Assembly: GCF_019455445.1 (NCBI RefSeq)
Contig: NZ_JAHWUS010000001.1
Span: 1-64,000, forward strand
Source of the DNA: Pseudaquidulcibacter saccharophilus
GTDB taxonomy: Bacteria; Pseudomonadota; Alphaproteobacteria; Caulobacterales; Aquidulcibacteraceae
Length of the DNA stretch: 64,000 bases
Direction of reading: 5' to 3'
This document shows positions 986 to 45,160 of the stretch, one piece after another; the first letter of the stretch is position 1, and each line of letters begins with the position of its first letter. The position numbers and the translations under genes are program-made. The notes beneath the pieces were generated by a model, which was not told the origin of the DNA, did no database searches, and worked only from the letters and a program-made list of their open reading frames with translations.

Positions 986-1771
986 TTAATAGCCCGCAAA
1001 TCTTTCGGATATTTTCATAAAAACTGGATAAAGAATCATTCCAGCCACAAATCCGGCAAGGTGCGCCTCCCAGGCAATTGGAATCATTCCCGATGCCCGC
1101 AGTAAATATGCACCAAGAACGTTAACCAGCAAAAATACAATTCCAGAGCTTACGACTGGTTTAAAGACATACCGGCCCTCTGGTGCCATTTTAAATGCCG
1201 CAATAAGGTAGCCGCCGAAAATACCACTAATCGAACCAGAGGCACCAACAAGATACCCCTGTGAATTCATATTAAGCAGATAATAGCCAATGCCAGCCGC
1301 AACCCCACACACTAAGAAATAAATTATAAACAGGATTGCCGCCGCAATCTTTGCCCCCTGCACTTGCGGCAAATATTTAATATGGCGATAATTAACAATA
1401 TTCGCACCCTTTATAAAAGAGATTTCGGTAAATGGCCCAACCTGCATAAGCATTGCCGCATTCATAACCAAATGGAAAACCCCACTATGGATGAATTGAT
1501 AACCTATTAATGGCCAATAGCGTTGCACAAACCCCATGCCATCATATTCAGAGGTGCCTTTTAATATGTTGGTATCAAATACAGAATCTGCCGCCCAGTT
1601 AAACTCATAACCCTGCGGTGCAAATTGTCTAACGATATGAACAAGCACCATAATGCCAAGCAGGATAACCGTTCCATAATTTAAATTATTAAACATAGGC
1701 TCGTGCTTATTGCCTTGTTCAATTAATTCGGGCGGTTGGTTTTCTTGTGACATATCAGATGGTTCGGACAT
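986..1771 (-). CDS. Rhomboid family intramembrane serine protease
   Basis: A 261-residue polytopic membrane protein with a soluble N-terminal tail of about 30 residues. The rhomboid signature is complete: His95 and His100 with Asn104 in the HxxxxHxxxN segment, GASG at 176-179 with nucleophile Ser178, and catalytic His237 in an AHLAG segment. Rhomboids cleave transmembrane helices within the bilayer; the substrate here is unknown. A loop of about 30 residues (113-140) between the second and third membrane segments is somewhat long. The ATG at 1771 lacks a strong ribosome binding site, and Met7 is an alternative start. Confidence 0.88.
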   Translation of the reverse strand: MSEPSDMSQENQPPELIEQGNKHEPMFNNLNYGTVILLGIMVLVHIVRQFAPQGYEFNWAADSVFDTNILKGTSEYDGMGFVQRYWPLIGYQFIHSGVFHLVMNAAMLMQVGPFTEISFIKGANIVNYRHIKYLPQVQGAKIAAAILFIIYFLVCGVAAGIGYYLLNMNSQGYLVGASGSISGIFGGYLIAAFKMAPEGRYVFKPVVSSGIVFLLVNVLGAYLLRASGMIPIAWEAHLAGFVAGMILYPVFMKISERFAGY

Positions 1772-2171
1772 ATATAACCCTAATGTGGTAATTTATCATT
1801 ATATATAATGACGCGATGACCAAAGTTACAAGTCGCATATACATACGCGATTTATAATAAAGATTACTTTTAATTATAGAAAACAAAATAAAATTGCAGT
1901 TTTGTTTACCATATATAAATCTCACTATAATAGTTTTAAGTAATATTAGAGATTTATTAACTTTTGAAAGAAAAGAGCCAAATAAAGAAATACAATTAAT
2001 AACATTTAATCAAACATTACAATCCGATGTGTGGTTAATTATTTTCATTGATACTGTCCCATTTTGGGAATTTTGGCACAGCACTTGCATGGTTAACAAA
2101 GAATAAAAAAATATAGGACTTTTTTGCCTAGCCCAAAGCAAAGATAAAAGCGTCCGAATAAGGAGTTAAAT
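1772..2171. other. AT-rich intergenic region upstream of hfaA
   Basis: Four hundred bases between the divergent rhomboid and hfaA genes. Very AT-rich, without a credible gene; a 70-codon open frame at 1894-2106 has no ribosome binding site or recognisable composition. The only clear signals are the sigma-54 promoter at 2074-2089 and the hfaA ribosome binding site AAGGAG at about 2160. An activator or IHF site may lie in the AT-rich part, but none can be defined by eye. Confidence 0.6.
2074..2089 (+). promoter_or_regulatory. Sigma-54 (RpoN) promoter of hfaABD
   Basis: TGGCAC at 2074-2079, five bases, TTGCA at 2085-2089: an exact match to the -24/-12 consensus with correct GG-to-GC spacing. 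Transcription should start near base 2100, giving a leader of about 72 bases before hfaA. RpoN itself is encoded at 17335-18816. A sigma-54 promoter requires an ATPase activator, which is not obvious nearby. Confidence 0.75.
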
Positions 2172-2714
2172 ATGATGGAAGCCGATTACGAGCCGACAGA
2201 ATCATTAGAAGACAATGATTTAGCCGTGCCATACGATGGCTTGAAGTTTAAAAGGCGTGCTGGTGCAGCATTCAGTCTTGCCGTAATTGTTTTATCGGGG
2301 GCGGCATTTCTTGCCGTATCAGATGCCAATGCGCAGACCGTTCCTAGCTATGCTAATGAATTTACACAACCATATGGCTCCAACTCATATAATATGATGA
2401 CACCATATGATGCCACAACGCGCGATAGTGCGGCAAACCGTGTAATCATTGATGGCGTTATTATGTATGGTGACAATATCGCACAAAGTCTTGCCAATAA
2501 AGCAATTGGTGGCGACGGAACATCATATTCAGGCACAGGATACGCAATCGGCAACCAATTAAATGTAAGCGTATCTGGCTCTTATAACAACGTAATCGTC
2601 GATTCGACACAAATTAATAATGGCGATCAAACGGTCATAATCAATAATGGCTCAGCCAGCACATCAACAAATTCCAATTCTTCTAGCATTCTGAATGGGG
2701 GGCTAAACTTCTAA
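2172..2714 (+). CDS. hfaA: Holdfast anchor protein HfaA (curlin-like)
   Basis: A 180-residue exported protein with a charged N-region of about 30 residues, a hydrophobic core (about 31-50) and a likely signal peptidase site after ANA near residue 54. The mature part is rich in Asn, Ser, Gly and Thr with NNG/INN patterns recalling CsgA-like amyloid subunits. In Caulobacter, HfaA, HfaB and HfaD anchor the polysaccharide holdfast to the cell pole. Identity comes from size, composition and position: the next two genes are the CsgG-like HfaB and a large Asn-rich HfaD candidate. AAGGAG lies seven bases before the ATG. Its stop overlaps the hfaB start by one base. Confidence 0.75.
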   Translation: MMEADYEPTESLEDNDLAVPYDGLKFKRRAGAAFSLAVIVLSGAAFLAVSDANAQTVPSYANEFTQPYGSNSYNMMTPYDATTRDSAANRVIIDGVIMYGDNIAQSLANKAIGGDGTSYSGTGYAIGNQLNVSVSGSYNNVIVDSTQINNGDQTVIINNGSASTSTNSNSSSILNGGLNF

Positions 2715-3718
2715 TGTTAAAGGTAACTCAAAAATCATTTGCAACAATCGCTTTAGCCTCTTGTGTGGCTTTAACTGGTTGTATTTCACCCGTTCCAGCC
2801 TACAAAGGCAATTATGCAAAACCAATTGGCTCTTCGCCAGTTACTGCAAACCCAACGCCATATTCAAATGCGCTGGTATGTCTTGGTAACTATGCACGCG
2901 CGAACGGAATTCGCGGGCCAAAAATCACGGTTGGTCGTATCCTTGACTTTACTGGTAAAGCAGATGCCGAAGGCGGTCGCCAAATTACGCAAGGTGGATC
3001 TTTGATGGCAATGTCGGCATTCGGAAAAGCCGGTGCAAGACTTGTAGAACGCTTTGACACTTCGGTTTCAGAACTTGAATTAAAATATGCCAACAACCGC
3101 CTTATTGGTGACGAAGGTACGGATTACCGCAAAATCATGGCAGGACAAGTTCCGGGATCTGATTTCTACCTTGTCGGTGGTATTACGGAATTAAACTATA
3201 ACATCCGTTCTATTGGTTCTGACAACTATGTTGGTGACAAACGTTCCGACAAAGCAAAAGGCATTGTTAATGGCAAGCTATATGTGATGAACGTTGGTCT
3301 TGACCTTCGCCTTGTTGATACACGCACTCTAGAAGTGGTTGACGTTATTTCATACCAAAAACAAATTATTGGCCGTGAAGTTGGTCTTGGCTATTTCCGC
3401 TTCTTTGACAATCTTGTGGTTGACCTTGGTGCAGGTGAACGTTCACTAGAACCAATTCAGCTTGCGGTTCGCTCTGTTATCGAGCGCGCGGTTGTTGAAA
3501 TGATGTCAAACATTTACGGTGTTCCGGGCGCATCAGTATGCCAAGGCTCTTTTGGCCCAGGTGGCGACCCAATGGGCCCAATTGGCGTAACCGGCGCGTA
3601 TGTTCCACGCTCACAGGCAACTGCTTCTGGCGCTGATGAACGCGCAGACCCTAGCAATTGGAAAAATGTTGGCGGCACCACCATTCTTGGTGAACCATTG
3701 CGCGGACGCAAAAACTAA
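2714..3718 (+). CDS. hfaB: Holdfast anchor secretion lipoprotein HfaB (CsgG family)
   Basis: A 334-residue lipoprotein: N-terminal signal with lipobox LTGC (Cys23), then a CsgG-type domain (about 40-280). CsgG forms the outer-membrane pore that exports curli subunits; HfaB does the corresponding job for HfaA and HfaD. Supporting features are the conserved opening of the CsgG fold around residues 70-95, the GSDFYLVGGITE-like strand near residue 155, and the two-strand insertion with aromatic residues expected of the barrel. The C-terminal 60 residues are Gly/Pro-rich and probably flexible. Translationally coupled to hfaA by TAATG. Confidence 0.85.
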   Translation: MLKVTQKSFATIALASCVALTGCISPVPAYKGNYAKPIGSSPVTANPTPYSNALVCLGNYARANGIRGPKITVGRILDFTGKADAEGGRQITQGGSLMAMSAFGKAGARLVERFDTSVSELELKYANNRLIGDEGTDYRKIMAGQVPGSDFYLVGGITELNYNIRSIGSDNYVGDKRSDKAKGIVNGKLYVMNVGLDLRLVDTRTLEVVDVISYQKQIIGREVGLGYFRFFDNLVVDLGAGERSLEPIQLAVRSVIERAVVEMMSNIYGVPGASVCQGSFGPGGDPMGPIGVTGAYVPRSQATASGADERADPSNWKNVGGTTILGEPLRGRKN

Positions 3719-3725
3719 TCAGATA

Positions 3726-3753
3726 AAGGGCAGGCATTATAGTGACTGCCCTT
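3726..3753 (+). terminator. Stem-loop between hfaB and hfaD
   Basis: AAGGGCAG (3726-3733) and CTGCCCTT (3746-3753) form an 8-bp stem with a 12-base loop just after the hfaB stop. The following T-run is weak, so it is more likely an attenuator or mRNA-stability element than a full terminator. Confidence 0.45.
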
Positions 3754-3795
3754 ATTCCGTTTATGGCGGGTAATTTTAAAATAGTGCGGTGGCAA

Positions 3796-5196
3796 ATGAC
3801 AAATAGAAGCAATAAATTTTTAAATGGTGGCATCAGTCCACTATTATTTGTTGGTGCCAGATTATTTGTTGGTGTCAGTATTATTGTTGGTTCTAATGCT
3901 TTTTTTGCAACAGCAGCAAGCGCACAATCTTCTATACCTTGTGACCAGATTTTACCCTCTTGCCAAACTGGTAATCAAACCAATGACATTACCCAAGATC
4001 AAGTCGGCAATGTCGCCGCAAGTATCGTTATAAATGGTGAAACCGTAACGATTGACGTTCCCAATAATAATGGCGGTACATCGCCGGTAGAAATTACTGC
4101 AACCGATATTTCAAGCGTTTCTAGTGCTGCGGGTAATGTGATTTCTGCTACGGCCGCCAATAATACAAATCTTGATTATAAATCTTTACAAAACTTGTCA
4201 GGCAATGTCTCTGCATCCAATAGTGTAACCACAACAGGCCATGTACCTGGAATGGTTTATATGGTTACTTCAGCAAGCGGTAACTCATCACAAGCAGAGA
4301 CCAATAGTGGTGATATGAGTTATGTTGCAACACAAAACGTTGCCTCATCATCACAAATTACGGCCACTGCTGCGGCAGATACTGCACCCGATATGGGTAG
4401 TCTACTTATAAACACGCAAGCAAGCGCCAATACCGCCGCAATTAATAAGAATAATGGCTTGGTCAGCCTTGAAGCAAATCAGACAAATTATGGCACGGTT
4501 AATGCCAACACCAACGAAGTGAATTGCTGTAACGTTGATACAATGAACACCAATTCAATCGCGACCGGCAATACAACCAGCAGCGTTTCGGTAAATTCGA
4601 CATCATATAATTATGTCTTGCAAAATAATTACGGCGATATCACTTCAAACACGCGCCAAACAGTTACTAATGACAATAGTGATACAACAGTAACGGCACA
4701 AACCGCGGGCAATAGCGCATTTAATTACAATCAGTTTGGTTATACTGAAATGAATGCCGCACAATATTCTGGTGGCAATATTAGCTCTAATGCCAGACTT
4801 GATAGCGCATATTTCGATGGAACTGTTGTTGTTGGTTCGGCATCACAAGGCAACTCGACCGTAATGTCATCAATCGGTACAAGTGGTGCACTTTATGCAA
4901 CCCAAGAAACAGGCGCAGGAAGTGTGATTTCGGCAAATACGATTTTTGACACCTTTACAGAATATGGCGTGGGTTATGGCACAGCTTCGGCAAGCGGTAA
5001 CGCATTGGCAGGGTTTATCTGCGCGGGCTGTTCAACTGATTCTGTTTCTATGAACGGAACTATTTATCAAGAGAATAACGCGGCCGAAGTTGCAACCATT
5101 GGAATGAGTGCGTCTGGAAATGGCCGTCTGCATTCATATGGCGTTGCCGCAGGTAATAGCGCGACAATAATAACCCAAAACGGTCAAAGCTATTAA
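3796..5196 (+). CDS. hfaD: Probable holdfast anchor protein HfaD
   Basis: About 466 residues: signal peptide (hydrophobic core about 15-40, cleavage after ASA) followed by a long surface-type domain dominated by Asn, Thr, Ser, Ala and Gly, with repeated short beta-strand units typical of beta-helical or amyloid-like adhesins. A Cys pair lies near the mature N-terminus, a CC pair near the middle and a CAGC motif near residue 400. HfaD in Caulobacter is a large outer-surface holdfast anchor; assignment rests mainly on synteny and composition. The ATG at 3796 is preferred because the GTG at 3742 falls inside the stem-loop at 3726-3753. A strong terminator follows. Confidence 0.65.
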   Translation: MTNRSNKFLNGGISPLLFVGARLFVGVSIIVGSNAFFATAASAQSSIPCDQILPSCQTGNQTNDITQDQVGNVAASIVINGETVTIDVPNNNGGTSPVEITATDISSVSSAAGNVISATAANNTNLDYKSLQNLSGNVSASNSVTTTGHVPGMVYMVTSASGNSSQAETNSGDMSYVATQNVASSSQITATAAADTAPDMGSLLINTQASANTAAINKNNGLVSLEANQTNYGTVNANTNEVNCCNVDTMNTNSIATGNTTSSVSVNSTSYNYVLQNNYGDITSNTRQTVTNDNSDTTVTAQTAGNSAFNYNQFGYTEMNAAQYSGGNISSNARLDSAYFDGTVVVGSASQGNSTVMSSIGTSGALYATQETGAGSVISANTIFDTFTEYGVGYGTASASGNALAGFICAGCSTDSVSMNGTIYQENNAAEVATIGMSASGNGRLHSYGVAAGNSATIITQNGQSY

Positions 5197-5225
5197 TAAA
5201 GCCGCTACATCAATTAATAAAATAA

Positions 5226-5253
5226 AAAAAGCCGGAAATTAATCCGGCTTTTT
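5226..5253. terminator. Bidirectional rho-independent terminator
   Basis: AAAAAGCCGG and CCGGCTTTTT flank an 8-base loop, with A-run and T-run on the two sides. It separates hfaD (plus) from the convergent exported-protein gene (minus). Confidence 0.9.
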
Positions 5254-5273
5254 TATTATACTATTCAAGACAC

Positions 5274-17334: not shown

Positions 17335-18816
17335 TCAGAATGACTTTTGGCGTTTTCTCGTTACAGATGACGGGATACGCATTGCTTCGCGGTATTTTGC
17401 CACAGTCCGGCGGGCAATATCTATACCGGTCTGTTTTAGAATATCCACAATGGCATCATCCGATAATGGGGCAAGAACCGGTTCTTCGTCAATAAGTGTT
17501 TTAATTTGATAACGCACAGATTCGCTTGAATGTGCCTCACCACCATATGAAGAAGAAATTGATGTTGTAAAAAAGTATTTTAATTCAAAGACACCGCGTG
17601 GGGTCGAAATATATTTATTTGATGTAACGCGACTTACAGTCGATTCGTGCATATCAATCACATTTGCCACATCTTTAAGCACAAGCGGGCGCAAGTGCGA
17701 CACACCATAAGTCAAAAAGCCGTCTTGTTGACGAACTATTTCGCGGGCAACTTTTAAAATTGTGCGCGCACGCTGATCAAGGCTTTTTACCAGCCAGCTC
17801 GCCTCATTTTGGCATTCAGTGATATATGACTTTTCATCTTCGGTGCGGGCATGGCGTGAAACCATTTCACAATATGAATTATTAACCAAAACTTTTGGCA
17901 AGTTTTCAGTGTTCAATTCGACAACCCACAAACCATTTGGCGCCTCGCGCACAAAAACATCCGGTGTTATGGCATCGCTAGAGGTACTTCCAAATGAAGC
18001 ACCAGGTTTTGGGGTTAGAGAGCGGATTTTACCAATCATCCCCGCCAAATCCTCACCATCTACCTCAAGAATATGGCACAAAGAGCGCAAATCATGTTTG
18101 GCTAGCATATCAAGATTATCAAGCAAAAGCGCCATTTTTTCATCCAATTGCTTTTTCTCGTGCAATTGGGCCGCAAGACATTCCTTCACATTGCGCGCAC
18201 AAACGCCAATCGGGTCAAAGGTTTGCAGAACCGCAATGATGTCTTCTAGTTTTTCTTCATCAATACCAAGATTGCGGGCAACCTCTTCGCCATCAATTCG
18301 CAAATAGCCACCATCATCAATCGAATCTATCAAATAGGCGGCAATCATTTTGTCTTGTGGATTTTCAAAAGCGAGATTTGCCTGTGTCTCAAGGTGGTCG
18401 CGCAGACTTACTTCCTGCGCCAATGTTGATTCGAGAGAATCAAGTTCGTCATACGAACGCCCCGAACCCGCGCTTGACCAATCGGTTTGCGAACCATAAC
18501 TTTCAGCTGCAGGAATATCCGCATCATTATAAACATCTTCGTATGATGCATCGATAGAATCAGAAGCGCCCGGTTCATCGCCTTCGGCGGAAACACCCAA
18601 TTCGGTAACATCATCGGATTTTGCAAATTCGTCTGAAGCTTCTTCGGAAAACTCTTCTTCTTCACGCTCTAGCGCAGGATTACGTTCAAGTTCTTGATTT
18701 ATATAGTCATTCAGCTCAAGGTTTGACAATTGCAGGATTTTAATTGCCTGTTGCAATTGTGGGGTCATTACCAGACCCTGTCCCTGCTTTATTTCCAACC
18801 TATTGGCAATTGCCAT
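17335..18816 (-). CDS. rpoN: RNA polymerase sigma-54 factor RpoN
   Basis: A 493-residue sigma-54. Gln-rich activator-interacting region I (about 1-50, with MTPQLQQAIKILQLS), acidic region II (about 50-135), core-binding domain, helix-turn-helix, and the diagnostic RpoN box ARRTVAKYRE (about 468-477). It directs polymerase to -24/-12 promoters that need an ATPase activator. Three exact -24/-12 sites occur in this window (2074, 28657, 45160). It lies 49 bases after lptB in the conserved lpt-rpoN-hpf block. Confidence 0.97.
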   Translation of the reverse strand: MAIANRLEIKQGQGLVMTPQLQQAIKILQLSNLELNDYINQELERNPALEREEEEFSEEASDEFAKSDDVTELGVSAEGDEPGASDSIDASYEDVYNDADIPAAESYGSQTDWSSAGSGRSYDELDSLESTLAQEVSLRDHLETQANLAFENPQDKMIAAYLIDSIDDGGYLRIDGEEVARNLGIDEEKLEDIIAVLQTFDPIGVCARNVKECLAAQLHEKKQLDEKMALLLDNLDMLAKHDLRSLCHILEVDGEDLAGMIGKIRSLTPKPGASFGSTSSDAITPDVFVREAPNGLWVVELNTENLPKVLVNNSYCEMVSRHARTEDEKSYITECQNEASWLVKSLDQRARTILKVAREIVRQQDGFLTYGVSHLRPLVLKDVANVIDMHESTVSRVTSNKYISTPRGVFELKYFFTTSISSSYGGEAHSSESVRYQIKTLIDEEPVLAPLSDDAIVDILKQTGIDIARRTVAKYREAMRIPSSVTRKRQKSF

Positions 18817-27847: not shown

Positions 27848-28591
27848 CTATTCATCAAACTGTGTCAATGCCATTGCGGCTTTGACAGTATGCACTTCTA
27901 TTTCATATTTTTTTAGCATCGCCATAGCGTGATCCAGCATTTCAGGGGTCGCACCCCACGGTGTCGGGTTTTCACATATGTCATGGGTAAATAAGCAAAG
28001 CCACGAATTAGTTTCTTTTGCATGACGCACCCAATTTTCAATAAATTCCGGCGTCCATAAACGCGCCTCGATTGGCACTGCCTTTAGCTGTGCCATATCA
28101 AACCACTTGCCATTCAAACCTTGGCGAATGCCACGTGAAAGCGGGTAAAGTTCGGAATAAAGTTTTTTGGTACGCGGTGAAATATCACCAAATGGATAGG
28201 CAAAGGTTGAAACTTGATAATCGCCCAAGACTTCGTTGAAGAATGCCTTATTATCGGCCTCTTCCTTGCGTAACGCCGCATCGGATGCGGTATAGACCGA
28301 TGTATGTTTATTGGTATGCGAGCCTAATTCATGCCCCTGGGCCACCAATTCACGAAGATCATCCTCGTCATATTGCTGAACACCCTCTGCAACCTTACCG
28401 CAAAAGCCGCCAACAGCATAATAAGTTCCTTTTACGCCATATTTATCAAGGATTTTGCCGCCGACTTGCCATGCAGACTTGGCAAAATCGTCAAATGAAA
28501 TACTTGCAAGAGGTCGGTTTGCCTTGTTTTTCACAATTTTCACTGGAAGATGTGCAGTAATTTTCAAATTTAGTGAATTAAGAATATTCAT
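27848..28591 (-). CDS. NodB-family polysaccharide deacetylase
   Basis: A 247-residue carbohydrate esterase family 4 protein without a signal peptide. Motifs: ISFDDF (metal-binding Asp pair), HTNKH (metal-binding His), AYPFG, and a final LFTHDI. The size and lack of export signal recall the Caulobacter holdfast deacetylase HfsH, which would fit an organism with hfaABD, but orthology is not shown. The ATG at 28591 overlaps the stop of the FkbH-like gene by one base. A -24/-12 promoter lies 50 bases upstream, inside that gene. Confidence 0.88.
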   Translation of the reverse strand: MNILNSLNLKITAHLPVKIVKNKANRPLASISFDDFAKSAWQVGGKILDKYGVKGTYYAVGGFCGKVAEGVQQYDEDDLRELVAQGHELGSHTNKHTSVYTASDAALRKEEADNKAFFNEVLGDYQVSTFAYPFGDISPRTKKLYSELYPLSRGIRQGLNGKWFDMAQLKAVPIEARLWTPEFIENWVRHAKETNSWLCLFTHDICENPTPWGATPEMLDHAMAMLKKYEIEVHTVKAAMALTQFDE

Positions 28592-30387
28592 TATGCCACT
28601 TTCCAATCCAAATTATCGGTCAAAACAACAATTTCTGATGATGCAAACTTTGTGCCATTATCATAAATATAACTATTTTTGTCTTGTTGTTTAAAGCCAA
28701 GTTCATCAAGCATGTCGCGTGATGCCTTGTTTTTTGGTGTTTCATGATATGAAACCATTATTTTATCGTGTCCCGATGCCTGCAACTTCTGGCGTAGCCA
28801 TTCATAAAACGCATTTTCGACACGTTTCTTTTGCGCGCGGCAAGACATAAAAAATTGGTCGATTTTTCCCGCCGCTTTGTCAATAACTACAAAGCCAATC
28901 AACCCATATTCGCCAAAATTATCACGACAGGTAAGGGTAACACAAACATGGCTCTCATCGTCTTTTAATGCCAATAATTCATCAAGCGGATATTTATAGC
29001 CATTATAATTAAGTTGGTTGGTTCTTTGCGATAATTCATGAACCCGCGCCATATTTTTATCGTTAAGGCGGTCGATTATAAGGCTCATATTAGCTTTGCG
29101 CAAAAACTCTTCATAATCATCTCCACCGGAAACAAGTGCCTGATTACGCACCTCATCGGCCTTATACATTGCGCGGCGGTTTTTGCTTTCTTCGGTTACA
29201 GACGTTGGAAAGAAATCAAATTCCGGCAATTTACCAACATCTTCATGCGTTAAAATTCGCATTTGCGGGTGGGCATTGCCCACTTCGGCGCGTTCAAACG
29301 GTTGGTCATCAACAAAAACAAAGCTATCAATCCCAAGGCTGATTTGCTCTGCAAGGTTTTTAATAGAAATTGATTTTGGCCCCCACCCAATTTGCGGATA
29401 AAGGAAATATTCATCAAGCCCGAAATGTTTCAGCGCCTTTTCAACCAAATCTGGATCATTTTTTGAGGCGATTGAATGAACAATGCCGCGTTCATCAAGG
29501 GTTTGGATTGCCTTAACCGCTTCGGGGCGAACTTTGACCCCCTCTATGCCATCTTCAACCAAAATCCCATGCCACAGGGTTTCATCCAAATCCCAGACCA
29601 CAAGTTTCGCCGCTTTTGCCGGTTTGGTTGCGGCGGGTTTTGCAACAATCGCTTTTGGCTTTAATTCCGCAGCCTCTTTAAACGTCACAAAATCACATAG
29701 ACCAAAAACAATTGCCCGCCCCTCGGCCTCATTCATTGGTTCAATTTGGATTAGGAATTTTTGGTTTAAATCAACATGCTTTTTAATATCATCAAGATTG
29801 ATAACAAGACACCCATATTCAGGCGTAACTGCAACCTGCCCCAAATACATTTTGCCATTTGCGGCAACGTCAACATTAAAAATCGACACCGTAATTGCGT
29901 GGGTTTCACCATCCCCACTTATGGCCTCCAATACAAAGGCATCGGCCGCAAGTTCAAGGTGTGCATCGGCCTTTTGTTGTTGATTTAAATTATAGGCAAA
30001 ATTTCGCTTTACAAAATATGGAACAATTGGAAGCCGGTTTGCAACCTCCATAATAATCACTTTGGCATCATTTGTGCCGTGTGGTTTTTCACCGCCCACA
30101 GCCTCGATTTTTCCCCATTTGCGAAAGCGAACAAGTTTACATTCTTTTGAATTTTCAAATGCCTCAAACCCCGCAACAAAGCGGCGGCAATGCAAATCTT
30201 CACGCGGCGAATAAAAGCTACAAGTTGCATAACAAGACGGATATGAGCATTCCGAACAATGTTCCTCAAACACAAGACCCATTTTGGCGCCTATTTGCGC
30301 CTTTAATGCCTGATGCTTTGCGGTAAAATCTTCGGGAATGGCAAAATTTGTATAGGATTTTTTGCCTTGCTGCTTCTCTGTAATCAT
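28591..30387 (-). CDS. FkbH-like HAD-IIIC protein with Cys-rich N-terminus
   Basis: A 598-residue protein. A Cys cluster (residues 44, 47, 52, 56, 67) near the N-terminus looks metal-binding; residues about 105-235 form a beta-sandwich-like region; the HAD-IIIC domain (about 260-410) carries WDLDETLW with Asp266 and Asp268; the C-terminal 180 residues have a GNAT-like fold. FkbH-type enzymes load phosphoglycerate-derived glyceryl groups onto carriers. Pairing with a deacetylase suggests modification of a glycan. Translationally coupled to the deacetylase gene. Confidence 0.82.
   Translation of the reverse strand: MITEKQQGKKSYTNFAIPEDFTAKHQALKAQIGAKMGLVFEEHCSECSYPSCYATCSFYSPREDLHCRRFVAGFEAFENSKECKLVRFRKWGKIEAVGGEKPHGTNDAKVIIMEVANRLPIVPYFVKRNFAYNLNQQQKADAHLELAADAFVLEAISGDGETHAITVSIFNVDVAANGKMYLGQVAVTPEYGCLVINLDDIKKHVDLNQKFLIQIEPMNEAEGRAIVFGLCDFVTFKEAAELKPKAIVAKPAATKPAKAAKLVVWDLDETLWHGILVEDGIEGVKVRPEAVKAIQTLDERGIVHSIASKNDPDLVEKALKHFGLDEYFLYPQIGWGPKSISIKNLAEQISLGIDSFVFVDDQPFERAEVGNAHPQMRILTHEDVGKLPEFDFFPTSVTEESKNRRAMYKADEVRNQALVSGGDDYEEFLRKANMSLIIDRLNDKNMARVHELSQRTNQLNYNGYKYPLDELLALKDDESHVCVTLTCRDNFGEYGLIGFVVIDKAAGKIDQFFMSCRAQKKRVENAFYEWLRQKLQASGHDKIMVSYHETPKNKASRDMLDELGFKQQDKNSYIYDNGTKFASSEIVVLTDNLDWKVA
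28642..28657 (-). promoter_or_regulatory. Candidate sigma-54 promoter inside the FkbH-like gene
   Basis: On the minus strand TGGCAC (28657-28652), five bases, TTGCA (28646-28642): an exact -24/-12 element. The start site would be near 28631, about 40 bases before the deacetylase ATG. It lies in coding sequence, so a chance match is possible. Confidence 0.5.
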
Positions 30388-44695: not shown

Positions 44696-45088
44696 CTATG
44701 CCGCGTCAGTAGAAGTTTCTTCCATCGCTTGTGCCAAATCCAAAAGACGGCGGCGTGTACGTTCACCAAGGCGGTAGTAAGTGCGAATAAGTTCGCGTGT
44801 TTCTTTTTGACGCAAGATTTCAGGGCTAATATCATCATGATCATTCGCAACAGGTGCATTTGCAGGCGTTACATTAAGGCCATCATAGAAATATTGTACT
44901 GGCACAGATAATGCAGAAGATAATTCAAACAAGCGGCTTGCAGTGATGCGGTTTGCGCCACATTCATATTTTTGAATTTGTTGGAAACGAATGCCAACAA
45001 TATTTGCAAGCTGTTGTTGGGTCATACCCATTAGCCTTCTGCGGCGGCGAAGTCTGCGTCCTACATGAAGGTCAATTGAAGTAGCCAT
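44696..45088 (-). CDS. XRE-family helix-turn-helix regulator
   Basis: A 130-residue DNA-binding protein: an Arg-rich N-terminus, a Cro/CI helix-turn-helix (about 10-65, with MTQQQLANIVGIRFQQIQKYECG), and a C-terminal helical tail rich in Arg and Glu (about 95-125). This type is conserved in alphaproteobacteria, usually as a single gene. AAGGAG lies upstream of the ATG. An exact -24/-12 promoter precedes it, giving a 46-base leader, and a palindrome overlaps the -24 box, so it may be part of the sigma-54 regulon. Confidence 0.92.
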   Translation of the reverse strand: MATSIDLHVGRRLRRRRRLMGMTQQQLANIVGIRFQQIQKYECGANRITASRLFELSSALSVPVQYFYDGLNVTPANAPVANDHDDISPEILRQKETRELIRTYYRLGERTRRRLLDLAQAMEETSTDAA

Positions 45089-45144: not shown

Positions 45145-45160
45145 TGCAACCGTTGTGCCA
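45145..45160 (-). promoter_or_regulatory. Sigma-54 promoter of the XRE regulator
   Basis: Minus strand TGGCAC (45160-45155), five bases, TTGCA (45149-45145): exact consensus and spacing. The start site should be near 45134. It lies in the intergenic region divergent from the hbd gene. Confidence 0.7.

Follow-up and report, generated by a model that had tools for sequence, protein, structure and literature searches.

In Caulobacter crescentus the holdfast anchor genes hfaA, hfaB and hfaD lie in a row (PMC6707917; promoter control is not among the topics of that paper). Holdfast induction in C. crescentus flagellar mutants requires shkA, and tacA, shpA and rpoN were recovered in the same screen (PMC7885107). 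c-di-GMP governs ShkA and TacA, which act at the G1/S transition (PMC7010744). Four enhancer-binding proteins have been described for Caulobacter, NtrC and NtrX without a GAFTGA motif, FlbD and TacA with one; TacA controls sigma-54-dependent genes including staR (PMC10274813), whose product, an XRE-family regulator, is a repressor of hfiA, the gene for a holdfast inhibitor (PMC3900383, PMC10688885).

The hfaABD operon and its upstream region

The window analyzed here, a 64,000-nt stretch of Pseudaquidulcibacter saccharophilus DNA, has the C. crescentus gene order:

2172–2714, plus strand: hfaA, holdfast anchoring protein (NCBIfam NF037934, 79.5 bits, cut-off 50)
2714–3718, plus strand: hfaB, CsgG-like outer-membrane anchor (NF037935, 401.6 bits, cut-off 300; Pfam CsgG)
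3742–5196, plus strand: hfaD, holdfast anchor protein (NF037936, 86.7 bits, below the cut-off of 100; operon position)
5225–5254: stem-loop terminator AAAAAAGCCGGA...TCCGGCTTTTTT, closing the hfa operon and common to a convergent gene

The stop of hfaA and the start of hfaB overlap by one base. Compared with the C. crescentus operon, HfaA and HfaB exceed the NCBIfam equivalog cut-offs while HfaD does not; it falls slightly under the curated value, yet its position and profile coverage agree with HfaD. The hfaD start, GTG in the ORF list, is uncertain. Upstream of hfaA is a 400-bp gap, bounded on the other side by a divergent rhomboid gene (986–1771, minus strand), with the following features:

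2074–2089, plus strand: sigma-54 -24/-12 element TGGCAC-AGCAC-TTGCA (TGGCACAGCACTTGCA), an exact match, conserved in Caulobacterales
2100–2171, plus strand: predicted transcription start at A2100 and 72-nt leader, from spacing
2057–2069: inverted repeat TCCCA-TTT-TGGGA (TCCCATTTTGGGA), adjoining the -24 box on its upstream side, read from the sequence
2089–2096, minus strand: CtrA-type half-site TTAACCAT, between -12 and +1, a pattern match

The consensus is matched exactly by TGGCACAGCACTTGCA, with GG at -24, GC at -12 and the correct 5-base spacer. Setting C2088 of the GC as -12 places +1 at A2100, and the hfaA ATG at 2172 is immediately preceded by an AAGGAG ribosome site. The earlier note had reported an exact element in sense orientation with a 72-nt leader, and its sequence, spacing, orientation and leader length were all verified. 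It had also called the gap otherwise featureless, which does not hold, given the inverted repeat and the CtrA-type half-site. The inverted repeat is retained in the sister genome (G003/L034) and absent from the remaining genomes in a promoter alignment of five same-genus genomes; it is possibly a regulator site. The half-site over the start region also occurs in the sister genome, where as here a CtrA role would be conjecture from the pattern.

Exact TGGCACN5TTGCW sites number three in the window, against 0.16 expected per 64 kb (dinucleotide shuffles, both strands), and at least three were seen in 0 of 100 shuffles. Scaled from these shuffles, the expectation for the sense strand of the 400-bp gap is ~5e-4. 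Pattern searches of the whole genome (2.84 Mb) gave eight TTGCA-type sites versus one of the reversed pattern, and one TTGCT-type site versus none. With two mismatches allowed the window shows no enrichment (38 matches, 33.7 expected), so that, taken alone, only the exact match has weight.

Conservation of the element in Caulobacterales

Loci of hfaB or hfaA were gathered from a family-wise search of 60 relatives, from 80 named genome contigs and from 61 genomes of a single genus in the order; HfaA was placed by iterated profile, the upstream DNA was then scanned, and removal of near-duplicates left 78 non-redundant upstream regions. TGGCAYN5TTGCW is found in 59 of these 78 Caulobacterales regions, every time sense to hfaA, where first-order shuffles give a mean of 0.04. 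None of the 78 has it antisense, and none has the reversed pattern on either strand; among alternative spacers, 2–4 and 6–8 bases gave zero matches and 9 bases gave two. Carriers include Henriciella, Hirschia, Asticcacaulis, other Hyphomonadaceae and a Caulobacter sp. The earlier note had pointed to the hfaA upstream regions of relatives as the place to look for conserved -24/-12 elements, and they are indeed there.

In the genus of G050, exact TGGCACN5TTGCT precedes hfaA in 29 of 30 fetched loci; the element of G092 (L212), for example, is TGGCACGAGGGTTGCT. We assign this genus to Caulobacter because G131 and G092 have ShkA homologues that are nearly identical (~98% and ~99%, by eye from printed alignments) to the chain of PDB 6qrj, which we take to be C. 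crescentus ShkA. Five genomes of the genus to which the window belongs share TTGGCACA and TTGCA without any change, although the more distant of them align to the window promoter region at only ~46–52% identity. Predicted leaders cluster at 25–35 nt (median 29 nt, 56 promoters), and the 72 nt of the window is the longest.

One could suppose that the hfaA element is a chance match to the consensus: certain exact matches of this genome do fall within genes (e.g. L005, inside a ccoG-type gene), and the window's own exact site at 28642, described below, is not conserved. The low expectation in the gap and above all the conservation across the order in a single orientation refute a chance origin, which we consider extremely improbable. 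Judged from these comparisons, the putative sigma-54 promoter arrangement before hfaA either goes back to the ancestor of Caulobacterales or is very widespread among them. The searchable literature, which does not extend to key older papers, gave no direct report of sigma-54 or TacA control of hfaABD; going by it, the new finding is that a direct sigma-54 input to this operon would be conserved throughout the order.

The strict element is missing from 19 of the 78 upstream regions, notably from those of the Robiginitomaculum group: (i) In this group its place is taken by a conserved block, TAACACAATATCAACATTTGTAGTTCAGGAAG, immediately 5' of hfaA (L144, L160, L167, L186, L195, L205), which is a candidate for either a promoter switch or a leader element. 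(ii) Several Ponticaulis-type regions (L173, L174, L178) retain TGGCTTGCGGGCTGCA (GG-N10-GC) and, ~50 bp further upstream, have a TTCCCC-N7-CGA element; these sites may have diverged rather than been lost. Loss of rpoN as the cause of missing sites was rejected: rpoN was found in all 41 genomes tested, whether the site is present or absent, the Robiginitomaculum group included.

Activators encoded in the genome

The sigma factor itself is encoded, intact, in the same 64-kb window as the hfa operon:

17335–18816, minus strand: rpoN, sigma-54, with AID, core-binding and DNA-binding domains (Pfam PF00309, PF04963, PF04552)

Four full enhancer-binding proteins were found in the genome (L010–L013), and only two, L010 and L011, have GAFTGA, the loop by which such proteins contact sigma-54. 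L010 is FlbD (742 bits to NF050807, cut-off 750) and adjoins flhA- and fliN/fliH-type genes, while L012 and L013, both lacking GAFTGA, are NtrX and NtrC. The remaining protein, L011 (G000:C4, ~920 kb), is a receiver-AAA+-HTH regulator that is not FlbD, NtrC or NtrX; since the inventory equals the published Caulobacter set, L011 is most likely TacA. The genome also encodes a hybrid kinase, L240 (G000:C4, ~375 kb). Its clearly best solved relative, with 357 bits over 477 residues against 231 bits for the next, is 6qrj, nearly the full length of which is covered by the alignment; L240 fits a ShkA-like kinase. Clear full-length ShkA-like matches occur in most other genomes tested; in Robiginitomaculum genomes G061 and G064, which have no hfaA site, the best matches (L296 and L295; 207 and 257 bits) are partial or weak, and Ponticaulis breaks the correlation with the hfaA site.

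Another exact site of the window lies before a regulator gene:

45145–45160, minus strand: second predicted sigma-54 promoter, TGGCACAACGGTTGCA, exact, before the XRE regulator, with a predicted leader of ~46 nt
44696–45088, minus strand: XRE-family regulator (HTH_3; relatives search)

A search for relatives of this regulator in 51 Caulobacterales genomes found them in all 51, and [TC]GG[CT]A[CT]N5[TG]TGC lies at a similar position upstream of 25/29 and 10/15 of these relatives, with no antisense occurrence among the 29. The regulator may be StaR, the C. crescentus version of which is a TacA/sigma-54 target (PMC10274813), or a paralogue, and we treat it as a StaR-like candidate. Its site keeps its position throughout the order, including a family where no HfaB was found.

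The predicted hfaA promoter resembles the TacA/sigma-54 developmental promoters of C. crescentus, such as that of staR, in having an RpoN element before a polar-development gene, and the window's genome shares the activator inventory of C. crescentus and has a ShkA-like kinase. It differs from them in its target, which here is the holdfast anchor operon.

FlbD, being the genome's other GAFTGA activator, might act at hfaA instead; anchoring would then be coupled to the late steps of the flagellar hierarchy and not to the TacA programme. The FlbD/sigma-54 class III–IV flagellar promoters of Caulobacter have the same -24/-12 element and spacer as hfaA, and in this genome two flagellar sigma-54 sites, L006 and L009, precede a flgF/flgG-type operon and a flagellin gene. 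Both carry a TCGGCAAAAATTGCCGA-type box, 118 bp (L006) and 111 bp (L009) upstream of the site, and on the strength of these two promoters the box would be that of FlbD. In this respect hfaA differs from the FlbD-dependent promoters: no such box lies within 250 bp of the window's hfaA or XRE sites, and with as many as three mismatches allowed none was found in relatives' hfaA upstream regions (0/78 and 0/22). A looser GGCAA-N3-6-TGCC pattern is present in 6/78. Provided that the box belongs to FlbD, its absence disfavours FlbD; moreover, holdfast control is known from the literature to involve shkA (PMC7885107), which acts upstream of TacA. We consider activation by FlbD unlikely.

Elements upstream of the hfaA site

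Among Hyphomonadaceae hfaA promoters, the dyad TTC-N10-CGA tops the many tested, occurring in 22/59 against 2.9 expected, mostly 40–42 or 50–51 bp upstream of the -24 box. The two positions differ by roughly one turn of the helix, the spacing expected if the bound protein has to face the polymerase. In its fuller form, TTCCCC-N7-CGA, the element is found 40–51 bp upstream of the -24 box in L023, L140, L143, L145, L148, L170, L189, L194 and others, and it is a candidate activator site. The dyad was not seen at the equivalent position in XRE promoters and is not evident in the window's own hfaA promoter, and for this reason it cannot be called a TacA site. An activator site common to hfaA and XRE promoters was searched for and none was found. 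CtrA is an alternative owner of the upstream element, particularly of its Caulobacter form, TTAACCA, a CtrA-type half-site at hfaA in this genus (L209–L237) that is often followed by CGAGACC.

These half-sites bear on another scheme, in which basal or cell-cycle expression would come from a sigma-70/CtrA-type promoter, with the sigma-54 element as a second input. Nearly every non-redundant Caulobacter promoter has TTAACCA 47–50 bp upstream of the site (21 occurrences in 22), the start region of the window's promoter is overlapped by TTAACCAT, and the Robiginitomaculum group, with no sigma-54 element, has another conserved block adjoining hfaA. On the other hand, sigma-70-like matches in the region are not above shuffles (11 vs 10.1), and the full TTAA-N7-TTAA box is absent from the 400-bp gap. 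We consider dual control of this kind less likely than not.

Probable control of hfaABD by sigma-54

The best explanation of these data, and a highly probable one, is that 2074–2089 is a genuine sigma-54 promoter transcribing hfaABD; its use in vivo we infer. As far as sequence comparison can establish a promoter, this one is established. RpoN control of the holdfast anchor operon, as proposed in the earlier note, is a strong inference from the conservation (59/78 upstream regions and 29/30 Caulobacter loci), the intact rpoN and the GAFTGA activators of the genome. The note had further held that an AAA+ activator is needed: activators of the GAFTGA type are indeed encoded, and as to which of them would act, TacA is favoured over FlbD.

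In the proposed mechanism, RpoN-RNA polymerase would bind the -24/-12 element as a closed complex, to be opened by a GAFTGA-type AAA+ activator, and the outer-membrane holdfast anchor would be made when, and only when, that activator is active. The likeliest activator would be the TacA-like L011, fed by the ShkA-like L240, as in the swarmer-to-stalked programme of C. crescentus. TacA is favoured because of the missing flagellar-type box at hfaA, the holdfast role of shkA and the recovery of tacA and rpoN in the C. crescentus screen (PMC7885107); it is our best guess and somewhat better than an even bet. Cell-cycle timing of hfaABD is plausible and would agree with the stage at which ShkA and TacA act in C. 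crescentus (PMC7010744).

More broadly, holdfast anchoring could be a direct sigma-54 output of the c-di-GMP-ShkA-TacA switch in all Caulobacterales, C. crescentus included, with the promoter replaced in Robiginitomaculum; we give this generalization an even chance. If it is true, one signal runs the stalk programme and deploys the holdfast anchor. The anchor as a direct sigma-54 target would explain the genetic link of shkA, tacA and rpoN to Caulobacter surface attachment. The sigma-54 input would be the ancient part of holdfast regulation, which some lineages may have rewired. As the element is exact in Caulobacter too, such control is directly testable in laboratory strains.

A third exact site in the window

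The last exact site (28642–28657, minus strand) stands before a distant HfsH-type polysaccharide deacetylase (27848–28657 region) and is contained in the 3' end of the preceding FkbH-domain gene. In 29 other homologous loci, the sister genome included, no site with at most one mismatch was found. Its location in the FkbH-domain gene and this lack of conservation led us to reject it as a holdfast promoter. The sister genome's copy of the deacetylase (G003:C8:27755-28454) shows as two split matches.
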